In this document: in pieces, positions 14,835 through 33,638 of the stretch
Layout of the letters: each line of letters starts with the position of its first letter
Numbering within the stretch: the stretch's first letter is position 1
Assembly (NCBI GenBank): GCA_027493055.1
Contig: JAPUDO010000082.1
Location: forward strand, 4,573-57,868
Length of the DNA: 53,296 nt
Direction: 5' to 3'
DNA from: Niabella sp.
Lineage (GTDB): Bacteria > Bacteroidota > Bacteroidia > Chitinophagales > Chitinophagaceae
Notes under the pieces: model-generated
Told to the model about the DNA's origin: nothing
Seen by the model: the letters and a program-made list of their open reading frames with translations, nothing else
Database searches by the model: none
Translations under genes and position numbers: made by a program

Positions 14835-16025
14835 ATGAGCACAATTAAAAACATAATTAAAATAATAAAAAGAATAACAGGAGTTAACTCCATCAGCCAT
14901 ACCTATTGGCGTGCTAAAGGTTTTTTATTATTAACTGTCGATGAAACAGTGCAAACCCTTAAATCTTATTGTATAAAAGTAGTACCGGAGTCATCTGTTG
15001 ACCTGCCGGATATACAGGATGAAAATAATCCTAGGAACAAGATCTATAAGGCGTATACATTTACCTCAGGTGAAGTGTATGTATGGCAGCTTGAGTTTAA
15101 AGATGGGTTTATTTCAAAGCATGGCTCTGTTATAGTTAATAAAAAAGTATTTTGCACAGACTGGGATCACCGGGGTTTTGAGCATGAATTCTGGAAGAAA
15201 GATAAAAGATTGCCAAAACATGTCAAAACGGTCATCCCTTTATTAAGTCATCATCAGGATATGCAGGTATTCTACTCACTGACAGGTTATTATGATTTTG
15301 TCCTGTTAGTTGCGGCAAAGCTAAGCAGAATTAAAGACGCAGTAGGAGATGATAATATTCAGGATATGTACATTACTTACCATTCATTTGGCGGAAGGTA
15401 TGAAAGGGAATACATGGAATTATTAGGTTTTAACCCAGATAATTACGTCGACAGCCGCACTTATAACTTCTTGGCCGAAAAAGTGATTTTTGGAAATACC
15501 GGAACCTGGAAACCTAACGTAAATGAGATACTGTCACTTAAAAGAAATATTGAGTCACGGTTAAATATTTCAGATGACACACCGTCTGCCGGTAACAGGA
15601 TATATATCAGCAGAAAAGGCAGGAGAAAAATTGAAAATGAAGACGAATTGATCGAACTTTTAAAAAGATTTGGTTTTATTATCATTGAGGATAGAGAAAG
15701 AAGCGTTGTGGAACAAATCAATATTTATAGAAATGCTTCTTTTATAATAGGTCCGCATGGTGCTTCATTTGCTAATATTATCTGGTGCAGGCCAGGTACT
15801 TTTTTATACGAGCTTTTTCCCAAAAGCTGGACCCCCGATTATTTTCTTTATATGGCTAAAGTTAATAATATGCAGTATGCTGCATATTGGGATGACACTC
15901 ATAAGGATATTAGTAACGATTTATTTGAGGCGTTACACCAGAATATTTACGTATCAATCCCTAAATTACAATCCAGTTTGGAAAGTCTACTAGGAAAGTG
16001 CCCGCCGTTGCAGGTATTGGAGTAA
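14835..16025 (+). CDS. GT61-family (DUF563) glycosyltransferase
   Basis: A 396-residue glycosyltransferase of the GT61 type. The C-terminal half has the family signature: a ISRKGRRKIENEDEL segment, then VVEQINIYRNASFIIGPHGASFANIIWCRPG, where the GPHGA loop is typical of the donor-binding region. There is no signal peptide, so it should act in the cytoplasm. It lies alone between the TylF-like methyltransferase (divergent) and the NRPS-PKS genes (278 nt downstream, with their own promoter). It may glycosylate the assembly-line product or contribute to the polysaccharide made further downstream; neither can be decided here. Confidence 0.8.
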   Translation: MSTIKNIIKIIKRITGVNSISHTYWRAKGFLLLTVDETVQTLKSYCIKVVPESSVDLPDIQDENNPRNKIYKAYTFTSGEVYVWQLEFKDGFISKHGSVIVNKKVFCTDWDHRGFEHEFWKKDKRLPKHVKTVIPLLSHHQDMQVFYSLTGYYDFVLLVAAKLSRIKDAVGDDNIQDMYITYHSFGGRYEREYMELLGFNPDNYVDSRTYNFLAEKVIFGNTGTWKPNVNEILSLKRNIESRLNISDDTPSAGNRIYISRKGRRKIENEDELIELLKRFGFIIIEDRERSVVEQINIYRNASFIIGPHGASFANIIWCRPGTFLYELFPKSWTPDYFLYMAKVNNMQYAAYWDDTHKDISNDLFEALHQNIYVSIPKLQSSLESLLGKCPPLQVLE

Positions 16026-16303: not shown

Positions 16304-19300
16304 ATGAGTAATTGGCGGCTACCAGAATATGAAACAGTGACCGGTTATATATATGATGCTGCCAGGGTATTCCCTCAAAATATAGCTGTATCATTTAATA
16401 ATGTTTCCATTACCTATCGGGAGCTGAACAGGCGATCTAACCAGCTCGCGGATTATTTATTGCAGAAGGGCTTAAAACCCGGGCAGTCAGTAGCGCTTGT
16501 TCTTGAGCGAAGTCCGGAAATTATCATTGCACTTTTGGCAATATTAAAATGCGGTGCCTGTTATGTGCCTATGGATCCTAATTATCCCAGGGACCGTGTT
16601 ATATTTATGGCAGAGGATGCGGCTGCACAGTTTTATATTACAAATCAAAAATTTTCCGGGAGGTTTGCCGGCTCAGTTGCAAATGAAATACTATTAGATA
16701 CAATATTAACTGATCTGGAAAAATGTTCGGAGGCCGATTTACCTCTGCAAAATAATCCTGAAGCTATTGCTTATATTTTATACACGTCTGGTTCAACGGG
16801 TAAGCCAAAGGGGGCAATGGTTTCCCATGGTAACCTTATCCATTTCTTAAAGGGCATGCAGGAAGTATTTAATATTACTGCCCAGGATAAGTTCTTAAGC
16901 GTTTCAAGTATTTCGTTCGATGCTTCCTGTTTTGATAATTATTTATCACTTATTCATGGCGCCGAATTAGTACTTGCCGATAATGAAACTGCGAAATCGG
17001 GTGATTTATTATTAAAGCTTATTGCTGATAAAAAAGCCAGCATTATGCTGGCAACTCCTGTTACCTATAAATTGATGCTGAATGCGGGTTGGGAAGATAA
17101 AATTGATGCTACGGTACTATCGGCAGGAGAACCATTGCCGGCTACATTAGCCCGGGATTTAATTCCAAGGTGCAAATCTCTTTATAATGTATATGGGCCA
17201 ACTGAAACAACTGTTATTTGTATACTTACTCAAATAACAGATCATAATAAAATAACTATAGGCAAACCTATAGAAGGTACCCCTGTTTATTTTTTAGATG
17301 AAAACCTCAACCCTGTTGATGCCAAAGCTGTAGGTGAAATTTACATCGGTGGCGCCGGTGTTTCAAAAGGGTATTTAAACCGGCCAGAGCTAACCAGCGA
17401 AAGATTTGTTAAGGATCCATTCAGTACTGTTGACAATGCTGTGATGTATAAGAGTGGTGATCTTGGTAAACTTGAACCTGATGGTAATATTTCCTATCAT
17501 GGAAGAGTGGATAATCAGGTGAAGATTCGTGGTTTCAGAATTGAGCTGGGAGAAATTGAGCATCAGTTGTCATTGCAAACAGCAGTGAAGGAGGCTGTAG
17601 TTATTCCAAAAGAAAATATGGCAGGTGAGTTGTTTTTATCTGCATATGTTACATTAAAACACCAGATTGACAGAAAAGCCCATCCGATGTTAATAAAAGG
17701 GTGGCGCACAGGCTTACACACATCTTTGCCTGAATTTATGGTGCCGGAGCATTTTACCATCATGGAAGCCTTGCCTATAAGCCCCAATGGAAAAATTGAT
17801 AAAAGCTCATTGCCTTACCCTTCAAAAGACCGTCCCGAATTATTAAATATTTTTGAAGCTCCACGATCTGACATTGAAAAGAACATTGCCGGGGTATGGA
17901 GTGAGCTTCTTGAAATAAGTCCGGTAGGAACAGAAGATAATTTTTTTGAGCTGGGAGGGAATTCTTTGCTTGCGCAAAAAACAATATCATCGTTGAAGGA
18001 AAAATTTCATTATGATATTCCAATAACAAAATTATACCAATATCCCACCATTGCAGGGTTACAGCGCATATTAAAAGGCAGTCAACCCAAAAAGGTAAAG
18101 CATCGGTCAGAATTAAAGCATAAGGGCAAAGAAGATATTGCTATCATTGGCATGTCTGGCCGTTTCCCTGGCGCTGATACTATAGAAGAATATTGGGAGG
18201 TCTTAAAAAATGCAAAAGAAACTATTACTTTTTTTGCAGAAAATGAGATAGATCCATCAATACCATCTTCTGTAAAGGACGACAGCGCTTATGTAAAGGC
18301 ACGGGGTATTTTAAAGAATATAGGAGAGTTTGATGCAGATCTGTTTGGTATCACTCCAAAGCTGGCAGAGCTTATGGATCCGCAACAGCGTGTATTTCTG
18401 GAGGTTGCCAGGGATCTGCTGGAAAAAACAGGAAAATTAAAACAAAACAAAGACGAAGTAACTGGTGTATTTGCGGGATGCAATACAAATACATATTTCT
18501 ACAATAATGTATTGCATTATAAAGATAAAATGGAGAACCAGGGTTATTACCAGACGTTGTCTGTTACTGAAAAAGATTATCTGGCAACACGCACAGCCTA
18601 CCATTTAAACTTAAAAGGGCCTGCCGTAAGTGTCAATTCAGCATGCTCCACTTCGTTATTAGCTGTGGCGCAGGCGGTAGAAAGTTTGCGCCGGGGCCAG
18701 TGTGACGCTGCCATTGCAGGTGGCGTTGCGATTCATGTGCCTGTGAATAGTGGTCATATTTACCAGGAAGGCTCAATGTTGAGTGCAGATGGGCACAGCA
18801 GGCCATTTGATGCCAATGCGAAAGGAACAGTGTTCAGTGATGGAGCCGGTGCGGTATTGCTCAGGCGCCTTGGTGACGCCGAGGCAGATGGCGATACCAT
18901 TTATGCAGTTATTAAAGGAGTTGGTATAAATAATGATGGAGGAGAAAAAGGGAGTTTTACATCGCCAAGCACCAACGGGCAGTTTGCTGCTATAACTATG
19001 GCTATGGATGATGCGGGCGTTAAACCCTCCGAAATCTCATATATAGAGACACATGGTACCGCTACCCCTTTGGGCGATCCTATAGAAATTGAAGGACTGC
19101 GAATGGCATTTGGTAACCCGGAGGGTAAACATTATTGTGCAATTGGCTCGGTCAAAAGTAATATCGGTCATCTCACACATGCGGCAGGTGCAGCGGGATT
19201 AATTAAAACCACTCTGTCGCTGTATTACCAACAATTAGTACCGTCTATAAATTATACTGCTCCTAATCCTGCAATTGATTTTGAAAACAGTCCATTTTTT

Positions 19301-22300
19301 GTGAATACACAATTACGCAATTGGGATGTGCCTGTTAAAAGAATTGCTGGTGTAAGCTCGTTCGGTGTTGGAGGTACCAATGTTCATATCATAGTGGAAG
19401 AATATCCAAAATCTCCCCAAACAAGTACCAGGGATAGCTTTCCACAAATTATCACATGGTCTGCCAGAAGCGAAAACAGCTCCGCGGCCTATGCAGGCAA
19501 GCTTGCAGAATATATTAAAAATAATAAACATCAGCATTTAGCAGATATTGCTTATACTCTACAACATACAAAACAATCTTTTCCTGTAAGGACAGCTTTA
19601 GTTGCCCGGGATACCGATGATCTTTTGCAGCAGCTTTCAAGCCCTTCCAGAATTTCTTTGCATTCATATATCTTAAAAGAAAGAAATAAGCAACTTGTTT
19701 TTGTTTTTCCAGGCCAGGGATCCCAATATGTAAATATGGGTAGGGAGTTATATGATAAAGAACACGTTTATAAAGAAGCTATTGATGAATGTGCCAAAAT
19801 TTTAAACAAAGAATTAGGTGAAGATATAAGGGAAGTGATCTTTACCAGTGAATCTGATGAAGCAGCAGAAAAGCTTAAAAATACTTTTTATACCCAACCT
19901 GCGATTTTTATAACATCTTATGCCCTGGCAAAACTATATTTAAGTTTAGGCCTTGTGCCAGACGCTCTGATCGGGCATAGTGTTGGAGAATTTGTTGCTG
20001 CGCACCTGGCCGGTATTTTCTCTTTACCTGATGTTCTTAAAGTGGTAGCGGCAAGAGCAAGACTTATTAGTGAATTGCCCGGTGGCGCAATGCTTTCTGT
20101 GCGTGCCGGAAAGGATATTGTATTGTCTCTGTTACCTGATTCTTTATCGCTTGCGGCTAATAATGCTCCCAATCTTTGTGTAGTAGCAGGAGACATCAGC
20201 GATGTAGAACATTTTTCTGAATTATTAGCTCAAAAGAATATACCCAATAAACCCCTTCGTACGAGCCATGCTTTCCATTCCTATATGATGAATGCAATGG
20301 TCCAGCCTTTAGAAAAAATTGTTTCGTTATTAAAGCTGGGGATACCTAAAATACCTGTTCTTTCAACGGTTACAGGTAATTGGTTAAAAGACGGTGAGGC
20401 TACGGATCCGGCTTACTGGGCAAAGCATGCACGAAAGACAGTTAATTTCTCTGATGCTATTAATGCTATGGCAGCTGATTTAAACCCTGTTTATCTGGAA
20501 TGTGGCCCTGGAATTACGGCAACTACGCTAATAAAACAGCATAATGGCAAAATTGCTGAAAAAGCATTCAGCTCGATTGATGTGGCTTCCAAAAACCATG
20601 AGGAAATAGCCGTAAAAGAAACGCTAGGCAGGTTATGGACACATGGTATTGAAATAAACTGGTCATTACTCTATAAAGATAATGTTAAGAGCTTGCTTCA
20701 TGATATACCTACTTATGTTTATGACAGAAAGAAACATTGGCTGGATCCTCTAGATACACCATTTGGAATAAATAAAAAAAATAACACTGCAGAGGTCTCA
20801 GAATTTGTAAAAACTGAAATGAAAACGGACATACCCATGAGGAAAGATAAATTAATAATACAGCTAAAAAATATTTTGGAAGAAGCTTCCGGTATTGATA
20901 TTGCAGGTGCTAACCCCCATGCCAACTTCGTAGAGTTGGGACTGGATTCTCTTTTATTAACCCAAATTGCCGCCAGCTTTAAGAAGGAGTTTAAATTTCC
21001 AGTTACTTTCCGCCAATTAAGTGAAGAGTTGGATACATTGGACAAACTGGCTGCTTATCTGGATGCCAATCTGCCTGGTGAGACAGAAAACGTACAACCA
21101 TCTTTACAAACACAGAATACACCCATTAATAATACCCCCATGCCTAATGGAATGGATATGGGGAATACTACTGCCATAGGATTGATATCGCAACAGATTA
21201 GTTTATTGTCGCAACAAATAATGATGTTGCAGTCGGGCACGGGTTTGCAGCCAACTGCAAGTGCTGCCTCATCAGCAACGGCCCCTTCACCTGAAACCAG
21301 GCAGAACAATACTGCAGGGGCTGATATTACTGCCGAAGAGCAGGCAGAGCTGAAAAAGCCTTTTGGAGCTATTGCAAGGATAGAGAAAAAAAGTAATAAC
21401 ATTAACGAAGAACAGGTAGCGTATTTGAATGAACTTATATCAAAATATAATGCTAAAACAGCAGGCAGTAAGAACTATACACAGAAATACCGGGGGCAAA
21501 TGGCTGACCCGCGAGTAGTATCAGGATTTAAGCCCCTTACTAAAGAGATGATATATTCTATTGTAATGAATAAATCCAAAGGATGTTATTTATGGGATAT
21601 AGACGGCAACAAGTATATAGATGCGCTGAACGGATTTGGTTCTAATTTTTTAGGTTACCAGGCGGATGTATTAAAGAATGCACTGATAGAACAGGCTGAG
21701 AAAGGATATGAAGTGGGGCCCCAGCATGAATTGGCAGGACCGGTTTGCTCGTTGGTGTGTGAACTTACCGGCAGCGACAGGGCTGCTTTATGCAATACCG
21801 GGTCAGAGGCCATACTTGGAGCAATGCGTATAGCACGTACCGTTACAAATAGAGATCTGATTGTGGCATTTAGCGGATCGTATCACGGTATTATTGATGA
21901 GGTACTGGTAAGGGGAACTAAAAAACTTAAAACATTTCCTGCAGCATCGGGGATTTTAAGCAGTAACGTACAAAATATGCTAATATTGGATTATGGAACG
22001 GATGAGACGTTGGAAGTTATAAAAGAAAGAAGTAATGATATTGCAGGTATTTTAGTAGAAACAGTACAAAGTCGCAGGCCGGAATTTCAGCCGGTTGAAT
22101 TTTTAAAGAAGCTTAGAAAACTAACTGAAGAAAGATCAATAGCGCTCATTTTTGATGAAGTAATCACTGGTTTCAGATGTCATCCGGGTGGAGTACAGGC
22201 CCTTTTTGGTATAAAGGCGGACCTGGCAACGTATGGAAAAGTAGTGGGCGGCGGACTTTCTATAGGTATTATAGCGGGCAAAAAACAATATATGGATGCT

Positions 22301-22918
22301 TTGGATGGTGGTCCGTGGGAATATGGAAATAATTCTGTGCCAGAGGTAGGCGTTACGTATTTTGCCGGTACTTTTGTAAGGCACCCTCTTGCATTAGCCA
22401 CAGCTTATGCATCTCTGAACTTTATCAAAGAACAGGGTCCGGAACTTCAAACAGGATTAAATAGGGCAACTGCAGATATGGTTAAGCGGCTGAATGATAT
22501 CTGTACAAAATATCAAACCCCATTATATGTGGCTTCTTTCAGTTCTTTGTGGAAAGTAAAGCCAAAAGAGGAGTACCCTTACCAGGAGCTGCTGTTTACA
22601 TTAATGCGTTTAAAAGGGATACATATATGGGATGGATTTCCCTGTTTTCTTACAGCAGCACATACTGCAGAAGATATTAACAGTATCGTAAATACTTTTG
22701 AAGAAAGCATTGCGGAGCTCTGCAATACAGGATTTATTCCGCAGGCAGAAAATGTAATAGCTTCACAAAACGGATCAGGTATAAAGATTATTGACAATTC
22801 AACACCGCCGGTTGCCGGGGCAAGGCTTGGAAAAGATAAAAATGGAAATCCTGCGTGGTTTGTACCGGATGAAAATACCCCGGGTAAATATTTACAAATT
22901 TCTTTGGACGATAAATAA
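16304..22918 (+). CDS. Hybrid NRPS-PKS with aminotransferase: A-PCP-KS-AT-ACP-AMT
   Basis: A 2204-residue megasynthase. Adenylation domain about 10-505 (TSGSTGKPKG at 161-170); pocket residues read by eye against PheA are D206 A207 F210 L249 L272 A274 V296 V304 I305 K497, suggesting a hydrophobic alpha-amino acid. PCP Ser554. Ketosynthase about 608-1035 with Cys781, His917 and His956 all present. Acyltransferase about 1130-1430 with Ser1226 (GHSVGE) and HAFH at 1322-1325, a malonyl-CoA signature. ACP Ser1549. Class III aminotransferase about 1700-2140 with PLP Lys1979 (TYGKVVGGG). No ketoreductase is present, so the aminotransferase should convert the beta-keto group to a beta-amine, as in the MycA/ItuA family. 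The tail (GNPAWFVPDENTPGKY) is the linker normally found before a condensation domain, which starts the next protein 3 nt on. PCP and ACP need a phosphopantetheinyl transferase from elsewhere. Confidence 0.93.
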   Translation: MSNWRLPEYETVTGYIYDAARVFPQNIAVSFNNVSITYRELNRRSNQLADYLLQKGLKPGQSVALVLERSPEIIIALLAILKCGACYVPMDPNYPRDRVIFMAEDAAAQFYITNQKFSGRFAGSVANEILLDTILTDLEKCSEADLPLQNNPEAIAYILYTSGSTGKPKGAMVSHGNLIHFLKGMQEVFNITAQDKFLSVSSISFDASCFDNYLSLIHGAELVLADNETAKSGDLLLKLIADKKASIMLATPVTYKLMLNAGWEDKIDATVLSAGEPLPATLARDLIPRCKSLYNVYGPTETTVICILTQITDHNKITIGKPIEGTPVYFLDENLNPVDAKAVGEIYIGGAGVSKGYLNRPELTSERFVKDPFSTVDNAVMYKSGDLGKLEPDGNISYHGRVDNQVKIRGFRIELGEIEHQLSLQTAVKEAVVIPKENMAGELFLSAYVTLKHQIDRKAHPMLIKGWRTGLHTSLPEFMVPEHFTIMEALPISPNGKIDKSSLPYPSKDRPELLNIFEAPRSDIEKNIAGVWSELLEISPVGTEDNFFELGGNSLLAQKTISSLKEKFHYDIPITKLYQYPTIAGLQRILKGSQPKKVKHRSELKHKGKEDIAIIGMSGRFPGADTIEEYWEVLKNAKETITFFAENEIDPSIPSSVKDDSAYVKARGILKNIGEFDADLFGITPKLAELMDPQQRVFLEVARDLLEKTGKLKQNKDEVTGVFAGCNTNTYFYNNVLHYKDKMENQGYYQTLSVTEKDYLATRTAYHLNLKGPAVSVNSACSTSLLAVAQAVESLRRGQCDAAIAGGVAIHVPVNSGHIYQEGSMLSADGHSRPFDANAKGTVFSDGAGAVLLRRLGDAEADGDTIYAVIKGVGINNDGGEKGSFTSPSTNGQFAAITMAMDDAGVKPSEISYIETHGTATPLGDPIEIEGLRMAFGNPEGKHYCAIGSVKSNIGHLTHAAGAAGLIKTTLSLYYQQLVPSINYTAPNPAIDFENSPFFVNTQLRNWDVPVKRIAGVSSFGVGGTNVHIIVEEYPKSPQTSTRDSFPQIITWSARSENSSAAYAGKLAEYIKNNKHQHLADIAYTLQHTKQSFPVRTALVARDTDDLLQQLSSPSRISLHSYILKERNKQLVFVFPGQGSQYVNMGRELYDKEHVYKEAIDECAKILNKELGEDIREVIFTSESDEAAEKLKNTFYTQPAIFITSYALAKLYLSLGLVPDALIGHSVGEFVAAHLAGIFSLPDVLKVVAARARLISELPGGAMLSVRAGKDIVLSLLPDSLSLAANNAPNLCVVAGDISDVEHFSELLAQKNIPNKPLRTSHAFHSYMMNAMVQPLEKIVSLLKLGIPKIPVLSTVTGNWLKDGEATDPAYWAKHARKTVNFSDAINAMAADLNPVYLECGPGITATTLIKQHNGKIAEKAFSSIDVASKNHEEIAVKETLGRLWTHGIEINWSLLYKDNVKSLLHDIPTYVYDRKKHWLDPLDTPFGINKKNNTAEVSEFVKTEMKTDIPMRKDKLIIQLKNILEEASGIDIAGANPHANFVELGLDSLLLTQIAASFKKEFKFPVTFRQLSEELDTLDKLAAYLDANLPGETENVQPSLQTQNTPINNTPMPNGMDMGNTTAIGLISQQISLLSQQIMMLQSGTGLQPTASAASSATAPSPETRQNNTAGADITAEEQAELKKPFGAIARIEKKSNNINEEQVAYLNELISKYNAKTAGSKNYTQKYRGQMADPRVVSGFKPLTKEMIYSIVMNKSKGCYLWDIDGNKYIDALNGFGSNFLGYQADVLKNALIEQAEKGYEVGPQHELAGPVCSLVCELTGSDRAALCNTGSEAILGAMRIARTVTNRDLIVAFSGSYHGIIDEVLVRGTKKLKTFPAASGILSSNVQNMLILDYGTDETLEVIKERSNDIAGILVETVQSRRPEFQPVEFLKKLRKLTEERSIALIFDEVITGFRCHPGGVQALFGIKADLATYGKVVGGGLSIGIIAGKKQYMDALDGGPWEYGNNSVPEVGVTYFAGTFVRHPLALATAYASLNFIKEQGPELQTGLNRATADMVKRLNDICTKYQTPLYVASFSSLWKVKPKEEYPYQELLFTLMRLKGIHIWDGFPCFLTAAHTAEDINSIVNTFEESIAELCNTGFIPQAENVIASQNGSGIKIIDNSTPPVAGARLGKDKNGNPAWFVPDENTPGKYLQISLDDK

Positions 22919-22921
22919 ACG

Positions 22922-25900
22922 ATGACTGCAGACAATAAGAACAATACGGTAGTAGATTTTGATCCGTTTTCAGGGGATACCATTGAAAAAATTGTTCCGG
23001 CAACGGAACCTCAGAAAGAGATTTTTGCTTCCTGTATTATAGGTGGTAAAGATGCAAATCTGGCTTATAACGAATCCTTATCCTTATTTTTTACAGGAAA
23101 GCTTAACAAGGATGCCCTGCGTAAATCTGTTGCCGAATTAGCATGCCGCCATGAATCTTTAAGAGCCACATTTACCGGGGATGGCTCTAAAATGATCATT
23201 TATGAATCAAGAGCCCTGCAGCTAAATTACCAGGATTTAGAAGCATTAGATACATCAGCTCAGCAACATATATTAGAAAAATATCACAATGACGATACAC
23301 GCCTGGCGTTTGACTTATTTAACGGGCCTCTTATCAGAGCAGTCCTTTTCCGTCTTAATGCCGGAGAACATGTGCTAACGCTTACTGCTCATCATATTAT
23401 TTGTGACGGATGGTCGTTTGGGATTTTGCTGGAAGATTTATCAAAGCTTTATAATGCGCGCTGTTCGGGCCTGTTGTCTCCTGCAAAACCACTGCTGTTC
23501 AGCGACTATATTATACGCTCTCTTCAATATGAACAATCTGAAGAATACCAGGATACACTAAACTATTGGAAAAAAGAATATGAAGGGCAGATACCGGTTT
23601 TTGAAATTCCTCCTGACTTTCCAAGACCTGCTTTAAGAACATATAAAAGCCGCAGAGATGATTTTATACTTGCTGCTGATATTGCCGCATCGGTAAAGAA
23701 GACAGGTGCCAGGTATGGTTGCAGTTTTGTTACTACACTAATGTCTGTATTTGAACTGCTCTTATATAAATATACAGGCAACTCAGATATTGTAATAGGT
23801 TTACCAACGGCGGGGCAGGGAGCTGCTGAAATGTATGATCTGATAGGGCATTGTGTTAATTTTTTACCGCTCAGAAGTAATCCTGATCCTAACCTGACAT
23901 TTGCAGAATACCTGAAAAAACGAAAGTCAAAAACGTTAAAGGATTATGAAAACCAGCAATTCACCTTAGGTACGCTTTTAAAAGAGCTTAAGATAGAAAG
24001 AGACCCTTCGCGCATTCCCCTATCCCCTGTATCTTTTAATATTGATATTGGGATGAACATGCAGGTAAGGTTTGAAGGCATAACGTACAAAATTGTTTAT
24101 AACAAAAGAATAGCCGAAACTTTTGAACTCTTTTTAAATATTACAGATTGCGAGGAAGGCTACGAGTTTCAATGGTCTTATAATACACAGTTATATAAAC
24201 CTTCCACTATAAAGGGGTTGATGGACAAGTATAGCTGTCTTCTTCAGCAAATAGGAGAAAATGCAGAACAAAGGATAGGTGATCTACAGCTTGAAGATAA
24301 GAGTGTATTAGCCGCTTATTGGGAAAACTGGAACAACCAGGCTAAGAAGGACTTATGGAAGGGTACCCTACTGGATAAAATAAATCACTCCTGTATAGTG
24401 CATGCCAATAAAGCTGCCTTGCATTTTAAAGGTGAGGTTGTAAGCTACAGGGAATTAAATGAGCGGTCCAACCAAATGGCGCACTATCTTCTTGCGGCGG
24501 GAGTATCTGCAGGTTCAGTTGTAGGCATAGCTATGGAAAGAAGTGCCGATCTGGTAATATCTATATTAGGAATATTGAAAGCCGGTGGTACATTTGTGCC
24601 GCTTGACCCGCAGTATGCGCCAGAGCGCATTGAATATATGCTGGAAAACTCGGGCGCAGCGTTTTTGCTGACTTCATCGCAGTTTGCCGGGAAATTGCGA
24701 ACCGGGGCCCGGGAAATAAATGTGCAATCATTATATACAGAATTGCAGTCTTATCCGGTAAACCTGCCGGACATTTCCCTTACGCGGGAATCGCTGGTAT
24801 ATATTCTTTATACTTCCGGCTCTACGGGTAAACCCAAAGGAGTAATGATCGCTAACCAGTCACTGGTTAATTACATTAGCTGGGCGGTTGACTATTATCT
24901 TAAAGGAGTGCCGGGCGTGTTCCCGCTTTATACTTCCATTTCATTCGATTTAACCATTACCTCCATTTTTTCACCCCTGGTATCAGGAAGTCTGCTTAAA
25001 ATATATGATGAAGAGGAGCCTGTTGCTCTGCTCGAAAAGATATTTACAGATGACCAGGTTAATGTGATCAAGCTCACACCTTCCCATTTGAAGCTGGTAA
25101 AAGATAGCAATTCTATTCTTCAAAACCTGCCGGGACAGCACCTCACATTAATTGTAGGAGGTGAAGAACTGGAAACTGCATTAGCGAAAGATGTTTACGA
25201 TTTATGCAAGGGTCATGTAACTATATGTAATGAATATGGTCCTACGGAAGCTACGGTAGGATGTATGATCCACGATTTTAATCCTTCAGAGGTACAGCCG
25301 GCAGTATCCATAGGAGTACCTATTGCAAATGCCCGTATTTATTTGTTAGATGAGGCGTTGCACCTGGTACCCAAAGGTATCACAGGTGAAATATATATAG
25401 GTGGTGTTTGCCTGGCAAAGGGGTATTATGGGAATGAATTACTCACCCGTGAACGCTTCCTGGATGATCCGTTTGTACCTGGCGAAAAAATGTATAGAAC
25501 CGGCGATAATGCCATCATGCAGGATAATGACCTTTTATTATTTAAAGGACGTATTGATGACCAGGTAAAACTACGGGGGTATCGCATAGAGCTGGGAGAA
25601 ATAAACTATCATCTGTCTGCTATTGAGGGGATAAAAAATGCCATCACTATTGTAAAAGAAGATAGCCCGGGCAATGGTTACCTGGTATCTTATATCGTAC
25701 TTCAGGAAGGTGCAACTGCTACAGATCAGGTAAAGGAGAAATGGCGCGAAGCGCTGCACAGTAAATTGCCGGATTATATGATCCCTTCCATTTTTATTAT
25801 ACTGGAGGCACTGCCGTTAACGGCAAATGGAAAGGTTGATCACAGGAAATTACCAGTTCCCGAAATAGAGCAGCAAAAATATATTGCTCCACAAACAGAG

Positions 25901-26929
25901 GAGGAGGTTCTATTGGCGCGGATATGGTCAGAAATATTTAACAGGGAGCAGATAGGAGTGCATGATGACTTCTTTAACTTAGGGGGGCATTCAATCATAG
26001 CCATCAAAGCAATGGCAAAAATTGAAGAAGTTACCGGTATAAGATTGCCAATTGCCACGTTATTTGAAGCACCTACCATTAAAGGCCTTGCTAAAAGGAT
26101 AGCCGGAAAAACAGAATCACCTATTAGCCGGGTTTTGATCCCCATAAAAGAAAGCGGTACCAGGTTTCCTATTTATTTAATTCATGGTGGCGCATTTAAT
26201 ATCCTTTTATACAAACAGTTAGCGCCTTTCTTTAGTGAAGATCAGCCTTTGTATGGTATTCAGGCCTTAGGGCTTGACGGGGATCTTACTCATTTAGATA
26301 GTATAGAAAGTATTGCGGCCCGTTATCTTACAGAAGTATTGGAGCAAAATCCGAAGGGCCCTTATATACTTATGGGCTATTCTTATGGTGGTCTTGTAGC
26401 TTATGAAATGGCCAGGCAGCTAACAGCAATGGGAAAAGAAATTAAGATGTTGGGGATATTGGATACAAATGTCAGTGACCGTACTGTTTCCAATGCTGTA
26501 ATATCCAGGTTGTTTTTTAAAATAAAGCACCAGCTAAAGAAAGCTGTATTTATAAGCACTAACCTCTTTAAGCACCCTAAAGATGTAATAAAATACCAGT
26601 GGTTGCTTTTCAACAGGCGATTTAATAAAAGCTATAAGGAAGAAGGGGAGGAACAGATTTATGATTATAACAGTAAAGTAATAGATGCGTATGATAAAGC
26701 GTATATTACTTATGAAATAAAGCCCTCTGATTTGAGCGTACATGTGTTCCGGGTTAAGGAGCGGGTATATTTTATTGATGATTTTACTTACCTGGGATGG
26801 AAAAAATATGCTAAAGGCGGGGTAGCCGTTCATGATATAGGAGGAGATCACAAAACATTTTTATTGCCGCCCAATAACAAGATATTGACAAAAAAAATAC
26901 AGGCTGTGGTAAATGGATTGAAGGCATAA
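22922..26929 (+). CDS. NRPS termination protein: C-A-PCP-TE
   Basis: A 1335-residue second half of the assembly line. Condensation domain about 20-450 with HHIICDG at 157-163. Adenylation domain about 480-975 (TSGSTGKPKG at 631-640). Its pocket, read by eye, is D676 L677 T680 K717 I744 G746 E771 V779 G780 K971, close to the published Asn code. PCP Ser1024 (LGGHS). Type I thioesterase about 1070-1335 with Ser1154 (GYSYGG), Asp1181 and His1310 as the likely triad. It should join the upstream beta-amino intermediate to Asn and release the product by hydrolysis or ring closure. It starts 3 nt after the first protein's stop codon, so the two are co-transcribed. No transporter, resistance gene or MbtH-like gene follows. 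Confidence 0.93.
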   Translation: MTADNKNNTVVDFDPFSGDTIEKIVPATEPQKEIFASCIIGGKDANLAYNESLSLFFTGKLNKDALRKSVAELACRHESLRATFTGDGSKMIIYESRALQLNYQDLEALDTSAQQHILEKYHNDDTRLAFDLFNGPLIRAVLFRLNAGEHVLTLTAHHIICDGWSFGILLEDLSKLYNARCSGLLSPAKPLLFSDYIIRSLQYEQSEEYQDTLNYWKKEYEGQIPVFEIPPDFPRPALRTYKSRRDDFILAADIAASVKKTGARYGCSFVTTLMSVFELLLYKYTGNSDIVIGLPTAGQGAAEMYDLIGHCVNFLPLRSNPDPNLTFAEYLKKRKSKTLKDYENQQFTLGTLLKELKIERDPSRIPLSPVSFNIDIGMNMQVRFEGITYKIVYNKRIAETFELFLNITDCEEGYEFQWSYNTQLYKPSTIKGLMDKYSCLLQQIGENAEQRIGDLQLEDKSVLAAYWENWNNQAKKDLWKGTLLDKINHSCIVHANKAALHFKGEVVSYRELNERSNQMAHYLLAAGVSAGSVVGIAMERSADLVISILGILKAGGTFVPLDPQYAPERIEYMLENSGAAFLLTSSQFAGKLRTGAREINVQSLYTELQSYPVNLPDISLTRESLVYILYTSGSTGKPKGVMIANQSLVNYISWAVDYYLKGVPGVFPLYTSISFDLTITSIFSPLVSGSLLKIYDEEEPVALLEKIFTDDQVNVIKLTPSHLKLVKDSNSILQNLPGQHLTLIVGGEELETALAKDVYDLCKGHVTICNEYGPTEATVGCMIHDFNPSEVQPAVSIGVPIANARIYLLDEALHLVPKGITGEIYIGGVCLAKGYYGNELLTRERFLDDPFVPGEKMYRTGDNAIMQDNDLLLFKGRIDDQVKLRGYRIELGEINYHLSAIEGIKNAITIVKEDSPGNGYLVSYIVLQEGATATDQVKEKWREALHSKLPDYMIPSIFIILEALPLTANGKVDHRKLPVPEIEQQKYIAPQTEEEVLLARIWSEIFNREQIGVHDDFFNLGGHSIIAIKAMAKIEEVTGIRLPIATLFEAPTIKGLAKRIAGKTESPISRVLIPIKESGTRFPIYLIHGGAFNILLYKQLAPFFSEDQPLYGIQALGLDGDLTHLDSIESIAARYLTEVLEQNPKGPYILMGYSYGGLVAYEMARQLTAMGKEIKMLGILDTNVSDRTVSNAVISRLFFKIKHQLKKAVFISTNLFKHPKDVIKYQWLLFNRRFNKSYKEEGEEQIYDYNSKVIDAYDKAYITYEIKPSDLSVHVFRVKERVYFIDDFTYLGWKKYAKGGVAVHDIGGDHKTFLLPPNNKILTKKIQAVVNGLKA

Positions 26930-27064: not shown

Positions 27065-27460
27065 ATGAAGAAAACAATTCTGATAGTGGATGATGAGCCT
27101 ACAATACTTAAGCTGTTGGAATTTGTTTTATCTAAAGATTATGAAGTTATTTTAAAAACTAATGGTTATGAAGCTATTCAGTGGCTCGAAGGAAGCAATA
27201 AACCAGATCTGATCATCCTTGATATCAATATGCCCTATTTTAATGGCCCTGAATTTCTTAAATCTATAAAAATCAGTGGTTTATTTTCTAATATTCCAGT
27301 TATTGTATTAACAGGGGATAGTGATACCAAAAAGATCAGGCAGGAATTAAGCTTTCCTGTAAATGAAATCATCCATAAACCTTTTAATCCTACCAAATTG
27401 AAAGATGCAGTCAAATATTTACTTACCGAAAACGCAAAATTTACCACATCTGAAAACTAA
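27065..27460 (+). CDS. Stand-alone response regulator (CheY-like receiver)
   Basis: A 131-residue single receiver domain with no output domain. The acidic pair Asp9-Asp10, the phosphorylation site Asp53 (LIILDINMP), Thr83 and Lys105 (HKPFNP) are all present, so it should be phosphorylatable. It lies 135 nt after the NRPS gene and its end overlaps the next frame by 56 nt. The next gene encodes a sugar transferase that carries its own receiver-like domain, which suggests that phosphorylation controls the first step of polysaccharide synthesis. No histidine kinase is in the window. No clear promoter was seen in the 135-nt gap. Confidence 0.93.
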   Translation: MKKTILIVDDEPTILKLLEFVLSKDYEVILKTNGYEAIQWLEGSNKPDLIILDINMPYFNGPEFLKSIKISGLFSNIPVIVLTGDSDTKKIRQELSFPVNEIIHKPFNPTKLKDAVKYLLTENAKFTTSEN

Positions 27461-28523
27461 TGGCTTCAGTAGCACCATTGGTATAGCCTATATCGGGAAC
27501 GATTTTTTTGATGAAGTTGTTGCTGACGCTGCGCTGCTTGCTGATTACTGGTTGAAACGGTTTAATGATTTAGCCGGTTTCCAGGATTATCTTTCAACAG
27601 CTTCCATCAGCGATATCCCTTATGTGCTCCTGGTTGAAGCGCACAGTGAAAGCAGGGTATTCCAGGAGGTTATGGCAATAAGAGAAAGAGCCATTACTTC
27701 GGGCATTATCATTATTTTGCTGACATCAATAAATAAAACTGAGCTGCAGCAAAAAGCATTGGAGGCAAAGGCAAATGATATATACTTCAGGCCATTTAAT
27801 TCCTATCTTATCTTTGAACGGATCAATTTCCTGATAAAATTTAAATTGCTCAGGCCCAACGAAGATCAGGATAAATTTTCAACCCAGATCCTGGAGTATA
27901 AAATTCCTTTGGCAAAACGCCTTTTTGATATTATGGTCTCTTCGCTGGTATTAGTACTGTTATTGCCGTTTTTTATTTTAATTGCGATAATTATAAAGTT
28001 AGAAAGCAAGGGGCCTGTAATATATAAAAGTAAACGGGCTGGTACGGGATATAAGATCTTCGATTTTTACAAGTTTCGTTCAATGGTAAACGATGCTGAT
28101 AAAAAGCTGGAAAAGTTAAGTAAAACCAGTAATCAATATGCAGGCAGCGAAACGCCTGCTGCATTTGTTAAAATACAAAATGACCCCCGTATTACACGGT
28201 TTGGAAATTTTCTCAGGAAAACAAGTATTGATGAATTGCCTCAGTTTTTTAATGTGCTGAAAGGAGATATGTCCATAGTAGGTAACAGGCCATTACCTCT
28301 TTATGAAGCAGAATTATTAACATCAGACCAGTTTGCAATGCGGTTTTTAGGTCCGGCTGGAATAACAGGGTTATGGCAAATAACCAAGCGTGGGTTAGCC
28401 AACATGTCGGATGACGAGAGAAAAGAGCTGGATAATACCTATGCCAAAAGCAGCTCATTTTTGATGGATTGTAAGATCATGTTAAAAACAATACCAGCAA
28501 TGTTGCAAAAAGAAAAAGTTTAA
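27405..28523 (+). CDS. Initiating sugar transferase with an N-terminal pseudo-receiver domain
   Basis: A 372-residue fusion. Residues about 25-145 have the alpha/beta pattern of a receiver domain, but the phospho-acceptor position in PYVLLVEAH is Glu/Ala and the conserved Lys is Arg129 (YFRPFN). It therefore looks unable to be phosphorylated. Residues 168-372 are a bacterial sugar transferase (WcaJ/ExoY type): a membrane helix at 175-197, then KSKRAGTGYKIFDFYKFRSM, DPRITRFGNFLRKTSIDELPQ and GDMSIVGNRPLP. This part should move a sugar 1-phosphate to undecaprenyl phosphate, starting repeat-unit synthesis. The assumed ATG lies inside the response regulator gene; the true start may be slightly downstream. 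Confidence 0.88.
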   Translation: MQSNIYLPKTQNLPHLKTNGFSSTIGIAYIGNDFFDEVVADAALLADYWLKRFNDLAGFQDYLSTASISDIPYVLLVEAHSESRVFQEVMAIRERAITSGIIIILLTSINKTELQQKALEAKANDIYFRPFNSYLIFERINFLIKFKLLRPNEDQDKFSTQILEYKIPLAKRLFDIMVSSLVLVLLLPFFILIAIIIKLESKGPVIYKSKRAGTGYKIFDFYKFRSMVNDADKKLEKLSKTSNQYAGSETPAAFVKIQNDPRITRFGNFLRKTSIDELPQFFNVLKGDMSIVGNRPLPLYEAELLTSDQFAMRFLGPAGITGLWQITKRGLANMSDDERKELDNTYAKSSSFLMDCKIMLKTIPAMLQKEKV

Positions 28524-28533: not shown

Positions 28534-29232
28534 ATGAAAATAAAATTCTTATTGTTTTTTATTGTAAATTTTATGTCGGTTATGGCTTTTAGCCAGGAGT
28601 CCATTATACAGGATATAAATGAGCCGCTGCTGCAGAAATACATCAATCTTGCAACAATTAATTATCCGCTAAAAAAAGTATCCGATGCCACGCTCGAAAA
28701 ATCAAAGGCGCATGTTTCTATCGCATCTTTAAGCGTGCTGGACATTTTTAATGCGGGTTATTTTTATAGTCCGCAGAAAAATCAAGGGCTGATATACGCT
28801 CCTGGAGGATCAGGAGCAAATAATAGTATTGTAATGCAGGGTTTCCAGTTTGGCGCTAATGTCAATTTGGGAAATTTGCTTTCAAAGCCTGGTATTATAA
28901 AAGCTGCGAAGGCTGATTATAAAATAGCCCGCGCTCAAAGCGAAGATTATAACAGGATATTAGCTAACAATGTAAAGCTGGCCTATTATGATTATCTTGC
29001 TGCCAAAAAGCAGCTCGAATTATCAATTCTTGCTGCCAAGGACTTAAAGAGCATCCTGGCTAATGCACAGGCGCAGTTTCAAAATGGCACTGTTACAATA
29101 GACGTATATACAGCTGCCAAGAGTGCTTCAATATCAGCAGATGCAGGAACGCTAACTGCTGAAGTTGCTTATTTAAAAGCAAAAAATAATCTTGAAGACC
29201 TGATAGGCGAAAAGCTTGAGAAAGTTAGATAA
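28534..29232 (+). CDS. Half-length TolC-like outer membrane protein
   Basis: A 232-residue secreted protein (signal peptide ending AFSQ) related to the outer membrane efflux (TolC) family but about half the usual length. It appears to hold a single repeat: a short beta-region at about 75-115 (YSPQKNQG to GFQFGANVN), flanked by long helices. The C-terminal helix ends with AAKSASISADAGTLTAEVAYLKAKNNLEDLIG, the family's typical end. It lies between the initiating transferase and the Wzz-like gene, where a Wza-type export lipoprotein would usually be. It may form the outer membrane channel for the polysaccharide as a larger oligomer. Confidence 0.75.
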   Translation: MKIKFLLFFIVNFMSVMAFSQESIIQDINEPLLQKYINLATINYPLKKVSDATLEKSKAHVSIASLSVLDIFNAGYFYSPQKNQGLIYAPGGSGANNSIVMQGFQFGANVNLGNLLSKPGIIKAAKADYKIARAQSEDYNRILANNVKLAYYDYLAAKKQLELSILAAKDLKSILANAQAQFQNGTVTIDVYTAAKSASISADAGTLTAEVAYLKAKNNLEDLIGEKLEKVR

Positions 29233-29257: not shown

Positions 29258-31441
29258 ATGAACCTGAATCTAAACCTGAGAGAGTTTTTAAAATACCTGT
29301 TGCGCTTTAAGTGGTTGCTTATTGTAATACCTGTATTATTTGCAGTAGTAACCTACTTTTTGGCAAAAAAGCTCCCCAAAACTTATCGGTCGTCGGCGCT
29401 TATATCAACAGGTATTACCGGTCAGTTTCAGCAAAGCGCATTAAATACAGGAAACCAGCTTGATTATTTCAAATTGAGCCAGCAGTTTGGCAACTTAATG
29501 GAGATGATGAAGTCTAAACGCAGTATTACTGCACTGGCATATAAACTGATATTGCATGACCTGAAGGATCCCGATCAGGCTTTTAAAGAACCTTCAGATC
29601 TAATAAAAAAGCTATCTTCACAGGATAAAGAGCTGGTTATAAAAGAGTATGAAAAACGGTTGGCAAACGGTACCTTGATATCTACTGCTGACAATGGCAA
29701 TCGCATTAAACTATATGACATACTTAATTATGCCGGGTATAGTGAAAACGCAATTTCAGAAAACCTAAGTATTGCAAGAAATGGGGAAAGTGATTTTATT
29801 AAAGTAGAGTTCATATCATCTAATCCTGATCTTTCAACCTATGTAGTAAATACTTTTTCAAGAGATTTTATTGCTTATTATACCAATCTTTCGATAGCAG
29901 GACAAAGCGAATCGCTTGCTATTTTAGATAGCTTATTGCGCGCGAAGCAGATAGATATGGAAAGAAAGAATGCATCAGCACAGGGAGCAATAACCGCTTC
30001 TGCAGCGGCTGCAGCCGGTGCTACTAATTCTCAGCGACAGTCTGATATGGCTTATTCCAGGGTGGCAGAAGCGGAGTCTCAGCGGCAGGTTTATCTAAGG
30101 CAGATCAGTTCTATAAAGGGCGCTATTGAAGATATTGATGCAAAATTGAAAGGGCAGGGAGGATATGTAACCCAGAATGAATCTACTAATAATACGGCTA
30201 TTGTAGATCTTGATAACCAGTTAAGGATAGCTAACCAAAAATATATTAACAATAATTTCAGGCCGCAGGACAAAGCCTCCATTGATTCATTGCAGCGTAT
30301 AAAAGAAAGGCTGGTAGCCCGTTCCTATAATACCGGCAGTTTAAATCCCACTGTTGTAAGACAGGAACTGCTAAACCAGCGCCTGAAATACGAAGGAGAC
30401 CTGGCAGCGGCACAAAGCGCCCTGACTACGATAGAAAGACAATTGTCTACAATGCCTAAAGGATCGGGTGGAGCAAGTGCAGCCCCAGGCCCTGCTCAAA
30501 ACATTATACGGGAAGCAGAAATCGCTTCGGCTGATTACCAGGCCGTTCAAAACCAATATAATCAGGCAAAACTGATGTCGCAAACTGCAAGCCATCTGGC
30601 TTTGGCAGAGCCGGGCTTGCCCGGTCCCCCGGAGAAATCCAAAAATATGCTATATGTTGCTTTTTCCGGTATATCTGGCCTGCTGGTTTGCATGATGTCC
30701 CTGTTCGTAGCTTTTGCCTTCAACACAACAATAAATGACCCGGGAAGACTGGAGGTTGTTACACGGCAAAAAGTGGTTGGCGCCCTCAATTTTATCGGCG
30801 AAGCTGATAAAGACCTGCGAAATATATGGAAAGACGATGGGGATGTGAAAGACTATAGTATTTATAAGGATCTGCTGCGATCACTGCGGTTCGAGATCAA
30901 CCAGCATTTGTCGGGAGATAATAATGTATTGGGCATTACGAGCTTATCCCAGGGGGAAGGCAAAACCTTCCTGGCAGGAAGCCTGAGCTATGCTTTTGCC
31001 ATGATGGGTAAAAATGTATTATTGATTTGTGAAAAGAACGATAATATACTGGACCTGGTGACGAATAAAAAAAATATGGAAGGAATGTCTGCACAAAAAT
31101 TTGAATCCTTCCTGGTTAAAAAGCAAATACAGGTAGAAGACCGCATTACCATATTAAACCGGGCCACAAACAGCAGCAATTCCCTGCTGGAGCTGCGGGA
31201 TGCCCAAAGCCTGATAGCCGGTTTTGAAGTATTAAAAAATACTTTTGATATAGTGATTATTGATATAGAAAGCGGACAGGACATGTATAATGTAAAAGAG
31301 TGGATGATGTTTTGTGATAAAAGCATTGCCGTATTTGAAGCTGGAAAGAAAATTGCAGAAAACGAGGAAGTATTTATTAAATTCCTTGCTGAACAAAGAG
31401 GCTTTTTAGGATGGGTTCTTAATAAAGTAAAAGTTGCTTAA
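29258..31441 (+). CDS. Wzz/BY-kinase-like polysaccharide co-polymerase with damaged kinase motifs
   Basis: A 727-residue inner membrane protein. N-terminal Wzz part with membrane segments at about 15-36 and 462-490, and a long periplasmic coiled-coil region between them. The cytoplasmic C-terminal part resembles a bacterial tyrosine kinase or ParA-like ATPase. Walker A is present (SQGEGKT, Lys569), but the A' motif (normally a hhhDxDxR type) reads VLLICEKND, Walker B is IIDIES, and the C-terminus has no tyrosine cluster. It is therefore likely to bind but perhaps not hydrolyse ATP or autophosphorylate. It should set chain length and couple polymerisation to export. It is in the same run of genes as the TolC-like and Wzy-like genes. 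Confidence 0.85.
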   Translation: MNLNLNLREFLKYLLRFKWLLIVIPVLFAVVTYFLAKKLPKTYRSSALISTGITGQFQQSALNTGNQLDYFKLSQQFGNLMEMMKSKRSITALAYKLILHDLKDPDQAFKEPSDLIKKLSSQDKELVIKEYEKRLANGTLISTADNGNRIKLYDILNYAGYSENAISENLSIARNGESDFIKVEFISSNPDLSTYVVNTFSRDFIAYYTNLSIAGQSESLAILDSLLRAKQIDMERKNASAQGAITASAAAAAGATNSQRQSDMAYSRVAEAESQRQVYLRQISSIKGAIEDIDAKLKGQGGYVTQNESTNNTAIVDLDNQLRIANQKYINNNFRPQDKASIDSLQRIKERLVARSYNTGSLNPTVVRQELLNQRLKYEGDLAAAQSALTTIERQLSTMPKGSGGASAAPGPAQNIIREAEIASADYQAVQNQYNQAKLMSQTASHLALAEPGLPGPPEKSKNMLYVAFSGISGLLVCMMSLFVAFAFNTTINDPGRLEVVTRQKVVGALNFIGEADKDLRNIWKDDGDVKDYSIYKDLLRSLRFEINQHLSGDNNVLGITSLSQGEGKTFLAGSLSYAFAMMGKNVLLICEKNDNILDLVTNKKNMEGMSAQKFESFLVKKQIQVEDRITILNRATNSSNSLLELRDAQSLIAGFEVLKNTFDIVIIDIESGQDMYNVKEWMMFCDKSIAVFEAGKKIAENEEVFIKFLAEQRGFLGWVLNKVKVA

Positions 31442-31446: not shown

Positions 31447-32877
31447 GTGGGGCATCTTATAAAAGATACAATTGCTAAAAAGAACATCTACCTGATAGGG
31501 GCCGCACTATTAGTTACATTAGCCTGTATTATTTTGGCAGCTGTTACGCAGAATTTTGTTTTGCCCCTGGTTCCGGTAGTACTGCTCTCTGTTGTCATTT
31601 TTATTATATTTTTATTTCGTGAGCCGTTCCTCGGCCTGATGGCCACAACAGGATATTGTTTTTTTCTTCATTTTTTGTCAAGAGAAATAGGGGGAGGCAT
31701 TTCTTATGGATTAGGCATAGAATTTTTGTTATTACTTACATGGCTGAGCATATGGTACAACGCGAATAGATTTGATTTTTCGAATTTGAACAATTGCCTG
31801 TTCTGGCTAACATTCTCCTGGTTTTTGCTGAGCGTTGCCGAAGTTGCCAACCCTGCAGGGGCAAATATTACAGGATGGATACTGGAATTGAGAAGCTCGG
31901 CATTATACCCATTTCTTATCGCTCCGCTGGGAATGCTCTTGCTCACAACCCCCAGGCGGCTGAATATTTTTCTTAAGACCATTATTTTATTCTCGTTGAT
32001 AGCAGCATTGGTGGGAGTAAAGCAAAAGTATATCGGGCTGTCCCAGGGCGACCAGCTATTTCTGCAGGATAATCCAACACATGTGCTGTGGGGGCAGATC
32101 AGGTATTTCTCTATTTTTAGCAATGCAGGACAATTTGGTCCTTCGCAGGGCCAATTTTCCATGATCGCGTTCGTATTATCCTTTTCTGTAAAAAAATGGT
32201 GGAAAAAAATAGTTCTCCTGGTATTGTCGGGACTGTTCTTTTACGGGATGATGATTTCAGGCACCAGGGGTGCCATGTTTGCAGTAGCAGGGGCTGCGGT
32301 TGCGGCTATGTTTTTAACAAAGCGCTTCAAGGTTTTTATATTCGGGTTGATAGCAATCGGGCTTTTTTATGGTTTTTTGAAATACACGAGCATCGGCAGC
32401 GGCAACTATGCTATCGTGAGGCTGAGGAGTTCTGTGGATCCAAATGATGCATCTTTGAACGTACGTTTTATAAATCAGAAAAAGCTTGCTGAATACATGA
32501 AGTCAAAGCCTTTTGGCGGCGGCCTGGGTGTAATTGGGTCTTTCGGACACAAATATAATCCAGACAAATATTTGTCCACTATTGAGCCTGATAGTTATTG
32601 GGTAAAATTGTGGGCAATGTATGGAATTGTTGGTTTTACGTTTTGGTTTTGCATAATGATGTTCCTGTTTGGAAAGTGCACGGGCATTATATGGAGGATA
32701 AAGAAGCCTTCTTTAAAAGTAAAGCTGATCGCTTTGCTGTCCGGCAATGCAGGGATATTTTTGTGCAGCTATGGAAATGAGGTGATGAATGATATGCCAT
32801 CATTAATTATCTTTTATCTTTCTTTTGGAGTAATTTTGATTGCACCGAAATTGGACAAGCAGTTAAGCAATAAATAA
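31447..32877 (+). CDS. Wzy/O-antigen ligase-like polysaccharide polymerase
   Basis: A 476-residue multi-pass membrane protein with about ten or more hydrophobic segments and a long periplasmic loop in the second half. It resembles the O-antigen ligase/polymerase family (Wzy_C region, with GTRGAMFAVAGAAVAAMF and the loop ...RFINQKKLAEYMKSKPFGGGLG). It should polymerise lipid-linked repeat units in the periplasm. The start codon is GTG (31447), only 5 nt after the preceding stop; no nearby in-frame ATG was seen. Polymerase and ligase functions are hard to tell apart by sequence, and the context (Wzx, Wzz, initiating transferase) favours a polymerase. Confidence 0.85.
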   Translation: MGHLIKDTIAKKNIYLIGAALLVTLACIILAAVTQNFVLPLVPVVLLSVVIFIIFLFREPFLGLMATTGYCFFLHFLSREIGGGISYGLGIEFLLLLTWLSIWYNANRFDFSNLNNCLFWLTFSWFLLSVAEVANPAGANITGWILELRSSALYPFLIAPLGMLLLTTPRRLNIFLKTIILFSLIAALVGVKQKYIGLSQGDQLFLQDNPTHVLWGQIRYFSIFSNAGQFGPSQGQFSMIAFVLSFSVKKWWKKIVLLVLSGLFFYGMMISGTRGAMFAVAGAAVAAMFLTKRFKVFIFGLIAIGLFYGFLKYTSIGSGNYAIVRLRSSVDPNDASLNVRFINQKKLAEYMKSKPFGGGLGVIGSFGHKYNPDKYLSTIEPDSYWVKLWAMYGIVGFTFWFCIMMFLFGKCTGIIWRIKKPSLKVKLIALLSGNAGIFLCSYGNEVMNDMPSLIIFYLSFGVILIAPKLDKQLSNK

Positions 32878-32996: not shown

Positions 32997-33638
32997 ATGG
33001 ACTTAAAGTCAAAAATAAAGTCCAGTACTCTTCTGAAAAAGATTGCGCTGTGGCTTCTTTCTCCAAAGAATGATCCCCGTCCGCGATACTGGATAAGATA
33101 TTTTGTAAACCCTTTTGTGCATAAAAGGGGCCGGCACGCACGTGTGAGACGAACGGCCAGGATGGATTTGTTTCCCTTTAATAAGTTTTTTTTGGGCAGC
33201 AGATCTATTATAGAAGCCTACGCGGTGGTCAATAATGGCGTAGGTGATGTGACCATTGGGCAAAATACAATAATTGGTATAGGGTGTGTGCTCATAGGTC
33301 CCGTAACCATGGGCGATAACGTAATGCTGGCACAGCATATTGTGATATCGGGGCTGAACCACGGTTATGAGGATGTGTTAATACCCCCAAAATCTCAGCC
33401 TGTGACCAAAAAACAGATATGTATAGAGGATGATGTGTGGATTGGTGCGAATGCAGTTATCACGGCAGGAGTGACTATTGGTAAACACGCTGTTGTAGGA
33501 GCGGGGAGCGTAGTGACCAAAGATGTGCCCGCCTTTAGCGTTGTGGTCGGCAATCCTGCCAGGGTAATAAAGGAATTTGATACAACAGACAAAAACTGGA
33601 AGTCAGTGAAAAAGGGTGCAGCTCTTTCACCTCAATAA
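32997..33638 (+). CDS. Hexapeptide-repeat (left-handed beta-helix) acyltransferase
   Basis: A 213-residue acyltransferase with isoleucine-rich hexapeptide repeats ([23 protein letters not shown]... and [32 protein letters not shown]). It ends with the common cap VVGNPARVI. The catalytic His is probably in SGLNHGYED. It resembles WcaF/WbbJ-type O-acetyltransferases that decorate polysaccharide sugars using acetyl-CoA. It lies in the exopolysaccharide gene run, 6 nt after the small membrane peptide and 13 nt before a glycosyltransferase. The acceptor sugar is unknown. Confidence 0.88.

Follow-up and report, generated by a model that had tools for sequence, protein, structure and literature searches.

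A two-protein hybrid peptide–polyketide assembly line at the head of an exopolysaccharide locus in Niabella

What does a peptide assembly line do at the head of a polysaccharide locus? The question is raised by a 53,296-nucleotide stretch of a Niabella sp. genome (NCBI GenBank assembly GCA_027493055.1, contig JAPUDO010000082.1, positions 4,573 to 57,868 of the forward strand; hereafter, the window). Here, two co-directional open reading frames (ORFs) spaced 3 bp apart encode a hybrid of non-ribosomal peptide synthetase (NRPS) and polyketide synthase (PKS). Synthetase 1 is built of adenylation (A), peptidyl carrier protein (PCP), ketosynthase (KS), acyltransferase (AT), acyl carrier protein (ACP) and aminotransferase (AMT) domains, and synthetase 2 of condensation (C), A, PCP and thioesterase (TE) domains (Table 1). 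An earlier note on this DNA had placed a two-protein line at 16304..26929, exactly where both ORFs are found; the exopolysaccharide context, the loss of the AMT and the exchange of A domains, all described below, are points absent from that note. The explanation preferred here, for which the sequence evidence gives about an even chance, is that the pair would be part of the exopolysaccharide locus and that the short cationic peptide it is predicted to make works with the polysaccharide.

Within the window, the pair stands at the head of an exopolysaccharide locus of Wzx/Wzy type and runs on the same strand into the genes for a response regulator, a sugar transferase, an outer-membrane efflux-type (OEP) protein, Wzc and Wzy. 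A sugar transferase, flippase, polymerase, Wzc-type protein and glycosyltransferases occur together, as expected of a locus of this type; no Pfam match to the outer-membrane protein Poly_export (Wza) was found among the window proteins scanned, and an OEP-type protein is present instead. Synthetase 2 is followed by the response regulator gene after a gap of 135 bp, and no terminator-like site was found in this gap. A dedicated peptide exporter is absent from the Pfam matches of the window.

The same arrangement recurs across the genus. Among 17 genus genomes, nine carry the synthetase (a KS–AT match in eight, plus a fragmented copy in G420), AMT-bearing in six, and orthologues of the glycosyltransferase GT4b and of the sugar transferase are each found in the same eight of the 17. 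Wherever the sugar-transferase orthologue is present (all eight genomes), the pair is found just upstream of the response regulator and sugar transferase genes, in the same orientation and separated from the response regulator by no more than one gene (one extra gene in G423, G426 and G427); the ninth synthetase genome is G429, where the copy is on a contig of 4.6 kb. Co-occurrence of synthetase and sugar transferase within the genus gives a Fisher P of 3.7e-4 with relatedness ignored, and the G420, G424 and G427 assemblies are incomplete or frame-broken and so of limited informativeness. In G423 and G426, the synthetase–polysaccharide unit lies away from the phosphorylase gene that flanks it in the window, and hence the synthetase and polysaccharide parts stay together at other sites.

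The extra genes are themselves varied. In G423 (L200:17550-18872) and G426 (L214:11245-12573), the gene that separates synthetase 2 from the response regulator is of UDP-sugar dehydrogenase type and, in G423, follows synthetase 2 at a distance of 28 bp; the G426 copy was assigned by Pfam and the G423 copy by eye. In G427, the corresponding place is taken by a gene (L211:9195-11387) for a 730-aa membrane protein with an apparent alpha/beta hydrolase part.

Linkage extends beyond the genus. In the Pedobacter-type loci of Pedobacter sp. PLR (L093), MC2016-15 (L095), PAMC26386 (L117) and P. westerhofensis (L096), as well as in G080, window-orthologous polysaccharide genes form one locus in which the synthetase pair occupies the opposite end. 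Identities to the window are 52-56% for the sugar transferase, 48-53% for Wzy, 60-62% for the hexapeptide transferase, 53-56% for GT2a, 56-60% for GT4b and 68-70% for the GMC oxidoreductase, with the flippase only 20-23% alike. The Pedobacter loci differ from the window in that the pair sits at the far end and in the other orientation, and in a second A domain that is Gly-like or of DVQ type; to judge from its length, the second protein of L093 also holds a methyltransferase-sized insertion. The G175 locus is similar to these but has no sugar transferase match. In G114, the pair is accompanied by a polysaccharide operon of lower similarity and by an extra A-PCP-TE protein encoded among the glycosyltransferase genes, and in Variovorax paradoxus CP063167 the pair lies upstream of genes for export, an autokinase and a sugar transferase. 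Two side observations concern these proteins: in the second protein of G080 (L034:13506-18716), A and PCP are separated by a methyltransferase domain, and the extra protein of G114 (L041:8965-11652) is 895 aa long with a Gly-like pocket.

Over 60 loci, a sugar transferase lies within 25 kb in 13 (2.2 expected) and within 50 kb in 19 (4.5 expected), counts for which distances were compiled by hand and contigs without a matched identity were scored as unlinked. Linkage within 50 kb is seen in 6/13 Sphingobacteriaceae-type, 4/6 Spirosoma-type, 4/5 Lysobacterales and 2/7 Burkholderiales loci, under group labels that are partly our own. In the nine-row AMT clade that includes the window (98/87), linkage is settled for seven rows, and all seven are linked. 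The 60-locus set omits the weaker class matches G280:C10, G290:C1:585282, G142, G033 and G352, the duplicate L103, loci below about 54% identity (L113-L116, L118-L136, L138) and the non-family loci L139-L172.

What, then, would the pair make? Synthetase 1 has Pfam matches to AMP-binding, two PP-binding stretches, ketoacyl-synt N and C, Acyl_transf_1 and Aminotran_3, and synthetase 2 to Condensation, AMP-binding, PP-binding and Thioesterase; domain matches this strong are not due to chance. The expected motifs are in place: PCP1 GGNS 551; KS ACST 780, HGT 917 and NIGH 953; AT GHSVG 1224 and HAFH 1322; ACP GLDS 1546; and AMT DEVI 1951 and YGK 1977 in synthetase 1, followed in synthetase 2 by C HHIICDG 157, PCP GGHS 1021 and TE GYSYG 1152 and GDH 1308, with ILDT 1179 as the candidate TE Asp. 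The HAFH motif of the AT is taken to be of malonyl type. Neither synthetase has a Pfam match to ketoreductase (KR), dehydratase or enoylreductase families at E<=0.001, and with no KR in the module the β-keto group would be left for amination. The domain order, intact key motifs and lack of a KR described in the earlier note are thereby borne out. The conserved C-terminal tail behind the AMT is likely to be a docking element. The Condensation match of synthetase 2 is the only one in the whole genome, and the phosphopantetheinyl-transferase family has three matches in the genome, all on other contigs.

The Aminotran_3 domain of synthetase 1 is of MycA type and sits directly behind the PKS ACP, as does the aminotransferase domain of MycA (6kfm, 6kfr, 6kfu). 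Its closest solved structure is chain 6kfm of MycA from mycosubtilin synthase (E 2e-103), to which it aligns over its full length, the YGK segment included; glutamate-1-semialdehyde (GSA) aminomutases come far behind, and the column of the pyridoxal phosphate (PLP) lysine is invariant across 18 aligned AMT rows. The substrate of MycA is a fatty acyl chain, whereas the chain of synthetase 1 begins from an amino acid: its N-terminal A domain is of amino-acid type with an Asp235-type residue, not the domain for a fatty acyl starter found in MycA, and in the AMT tree the window is distant from the Paenibacillus KS-first rows. The AMT would therefore work like that of MycA within an enzyme that is not of mycosubtilin type.

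In the proposed sequence of events, A1 would load an amino acid, which KS, AT and ACP would extend by one malonyl unit; the AMT would turn the ACP-bound β-keto group into an amine, giving a β,γ-diaminoacyl chain; and C–A2 would add Asn (or Asp) before release by the TE. The most likely fate of the peptide would be transfer onto a repeat-unit sugar or export beside the polysaccharide. What the sequence shows directly is the domains with their motifs and pockets, and a gene order that is conserved; all of the reactions, the source of the amine, the starter identity and the peptide–sugar link are inferred from it. Domain order, motifs, the missing KR, a malonyl-type AT, an Asp/Asn-type A2 and a MycA-like AMT together lead to a predicted β,γ-(3,4-)diaminoacyl-Asn as the unit expected from the pair, so that the amine at the β carbon and the vicinal C3/C4 diamine proposed earlier are supported as predictions. 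Pocket residues of A1 and A2 were derived by motif spacing, without a structure. The A2 code DLTKIGEVGK is placed among Asp/Asn codes, which are hard to separate from each other (PMC12283262); the Asp/Asn type of the second module thus agrees with the earlier note, while its choice of Asn over Asp stays a prediction. The A1 code DAFLLAVVIK, looked up to identify the starter, was not found in the open-licence literature searched. Amination at the β position with Gln as donor has been described (PMC3870968).

Is such a layout new? Of 395 class genomes, 38 match the AMT query at E<=1e-70. In a separate sample of named genomes, the relatives among the matches listed include members of Pedobacter, Mucilaginibacter, Spirosoma, Winogradskyella, Lysobacter, Xenophilus, Ideonella and Nostoc. 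The A domain comes first in 54 of 57 loci with an AMT identity of at least about 54% (50 by motif and four via the N-terminal A pocket); L109 and L112 begin with a KS instead, and the remaining locus is truncated at the end of its contig. This set includes the window and L103/G022 (same contig) and leaves out G329, G053, G141 and G308. A Pedobacter heparinus protein, C6XWU5, was tabulated in 2013 as A-CP-KS-AT-CP-PLP1 with predicted Nrp-Mal-Gly-Pk (PMC3870968 Table 2). Compared by layout alone, it has the domain order of synthetase 1, PLP1 being an Aminotran_3 of GSA type in an nrps-t1pks cluster; it differs in a second residue predicted as Gly rather than the Asn of the window, and the parts of that source used here give neither a product nor a polysaccharide context. 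The A-first AMT layout is thus an already known and widespread type, and the view that an aminoacyl starter is unusual before a MycA-type AMT does not hold. The earlier note also knew of no product with this layout: the layout has been on record since 2013 (PMC3870968), but no characterised product for it was found in the open-licence literature searched, which does not prove absence. The same literature, with the same limit, yielded no non-ribosomal peptide in a polysaccharide locus, and the link between the synthetase pair and polysaccharide genes is a new lead and the part worth following.

The product appears to differ between strains. Ten synthetases occur in nine genus genomes, six with the AMT and four without (G422 (L216), G426 (L214), G429 (L219) and the second line of G431); the latter are natural single-domain deletions that retain just the C-terminal tail behind the AMT (query residues 454-502 of 505), and the first protein of G426 lacks its A domain as well. 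Between the window and G423, identity is 38% for A1, as against 66% for KS, 58% for AT, 70% for AMT and 73% for A2; between the window and G431, it is 38% for A1 and 32% for A2, as against 68% for KS and 65% for TE. The A1 domains of G423 and G431 are 69% identical, and a window-type A1 pocket, DAFRLAVVIK, is found in later A domains of G424 and G431. Divergent A domains on a conserved remainder indicate that the frame is kept while substrate parts are swapped, and together with AMT loss this makes the exact product strain-specific. Among relatives at large, A2 pockets are often DILQ...WK, presumably Gly-like, or DLTKIGEVGK as in G222, and A1 pockets vary widely (DVQ types, the Thr-type DFWNIGMVHK and others). 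DVQ-type pockets are linked to Pro through Val236 and Gln239 (PMC12283262). A more specific proposal, offered tentatively and on balance rather unlikely, is that strain-variable amine-bearing peptides are built into or attached to the exopolysaccharide, with A-domain exchange and an optional AMT varying surface chemistry.

Co-location alone never proves joint function, and several observations weigh against peptide and polysaccharide acting together. Owing to common descent, the genus and Pedobacter loci cannot be counted as independent cases, and the P values are too small. Linkage within 50 kb is 0/15 in group g21 and 0/6 in f24 (both Bacteroidota) and 0/2 in cyanobacteria, and most Burkholderiales relatives are unlinked; the 0/21 of the two large groups rules out a universal linkage to polysaccharide genes. 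Of 29 class genomes with GT4b (E<=1e-90), 22 have neither an AMT nor a KS–AT match, from which it follows that the peptide is dispensable for the polysaccharide. The overlap of synthetase and GT4b at class level is only weakly enriched (P 0.014, or 0.036 without the window's own genome); seven genomes have both, four of them on different contigs. Loss of the AMT from four of the ten genus synthetases indicates that β-amination is not essential to the product's role. A candidate for synthetase 1's own promoter, TTG-N-TANNTTTG at 16175-16205, was set aside as being at chance level (1 found, 1.31 expected).

The pair may instead make a stand-alone secreted dipeptide (a protease inhibitor, signal or chelator) encoded by chance beside a variable polysaccharide locus, a serious possibility that nonetheless falls short of an even chance. 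It would fit the two unlinked Bacteroidota groups, Winogradskyella L100 and both cyanobacteria, none with a sugar transferase nearby, and the plasmid-borne relatives in Spirosoma linguale and Variovorax RA8, without annotated polysaccharide genes in the stretches read; accessory genes also gather in variable loci. Chance is harder to reconcile with a genus linkage of 8/8, kept at more than one chromosomal site, and with further linked loci of Pedobacter type, of Spirosoma type and from Lysobacterales and Burkholderiales. That the ACP-bound γ-amine attacks its own thioester, making a γ-lactam of 4-aminopyrrolidinone type the true product or main shunt, is improbable, as is a tetramate type in its place in the AMT-less sisters; the γ-amine would be free, with no capping condensation domain ahead of A1 in the window, and the general chemistry of γ-amino thioesters allows for such closure, but a complete C-A-PCP-TE partner stands beside synthetase 1 in most relatives read. 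Chelation of copper or another metal, with the vicinal diamine as ligand, is very improbable: copper-handling genes lie near the relatives on Spirosoma linguale pSLIN02 and Variovorax RA8 plasmid 3 (L031, L032), but these two plasmid relatives are the only ones beside which they were seen, copper genes are common plasmid cargo, and no copper family is among the window Pfam matches.

Table 1. Features of the synthetase pair and its surroundings, in window coordinates.
Feature	Position	Strand	Basis
Glycosyltransferase family 61, upstream of pair; same place in G423, G431	14835..16025	+	Pfam
Synthetase 1, A-PCP-KS-AT-ACP-AMT, 2204 aa	16304..22918	+	ORF, Pfam, motifs
A1 adenylation domain, pocket DAFLLAVVIK	16355..17812	+	Pfam; pocket from motif spacing
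Ketosynthase	18131..19423	+	Pfam; Cys/His/His motifs
Acyltransferase, malonyl-type HAFH	19691..20563	+	Pfam; motifs
Acyl carrier protein	20861..21061	+	Pfam; GLDS
PLP aminotransferase (AMT), MycA type	21401..22783	+	Aminotran_3, 6kfm match, 18-relative alignment
Conserved C-terminal tail behind AMT	22805..22906	+	Motifs, alignment, AMT-less sisters
Synthetase 2, C-A-PCP-TE, 1335 aa	22922..26929	+	ORF, Pfam, motifs
A2 adenylation domain, pocket DLTKIGEVGK (Asp/Asn type)	24398..25852	+	Pfam; motif spacing
Thioesterase	26168..26926	+	Pfam; motifs
Response-regulator receiver protein, first gene of polysaccharide operon	27065..27460	+	Pfam
Bacterial sugar transferase (priming enzyme)	27405..28523	+	Pfam; orthologues
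Outer-membrane efflux-type (OEP) protein	28534..29232	+	Pfam
Wzc-type chain-length/BcsQ ATPase protein	29258..31441	+	Pfam
O-antigen ligase/Wzy-type polymerase	31447..32877	+	Pfam
Hexapeptide transferase and four glycosyltransferases	32997..38204	+	Pfam
Glycosyltransferase and Wzx-type flippase	38233..40785	-	Pfam

Elsewhere in the window, genes for a sulfatase, SusD, a SusC-type receptor, FecR and a sigma factor at 1835-10705 (minus strand) form a neighbouring uptake unit for polysaccharide or sulfated glycan. Two related proteins without a Pfam match are encoded at 41138-42946 and 46743-48131 (minus strand), the longer with a low-complexity DSIxxADSIK-like repeat, and relatives recur in Pedobacter-type loci.

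Even if the peptide is not attached to the polysaccharide, the genus offers the same synthetase in natural versions that have or lack the aminotransferase, so that what β-amination contributes can be tested directly in a very small system of two proteins, without a characterised product in the literature searched. If it is attached, the locus would join assembly-line peptides and surface polysaccharides, fields that are handled separately, and would represent a non-ribosomal route by which cell-surface charge is varied.

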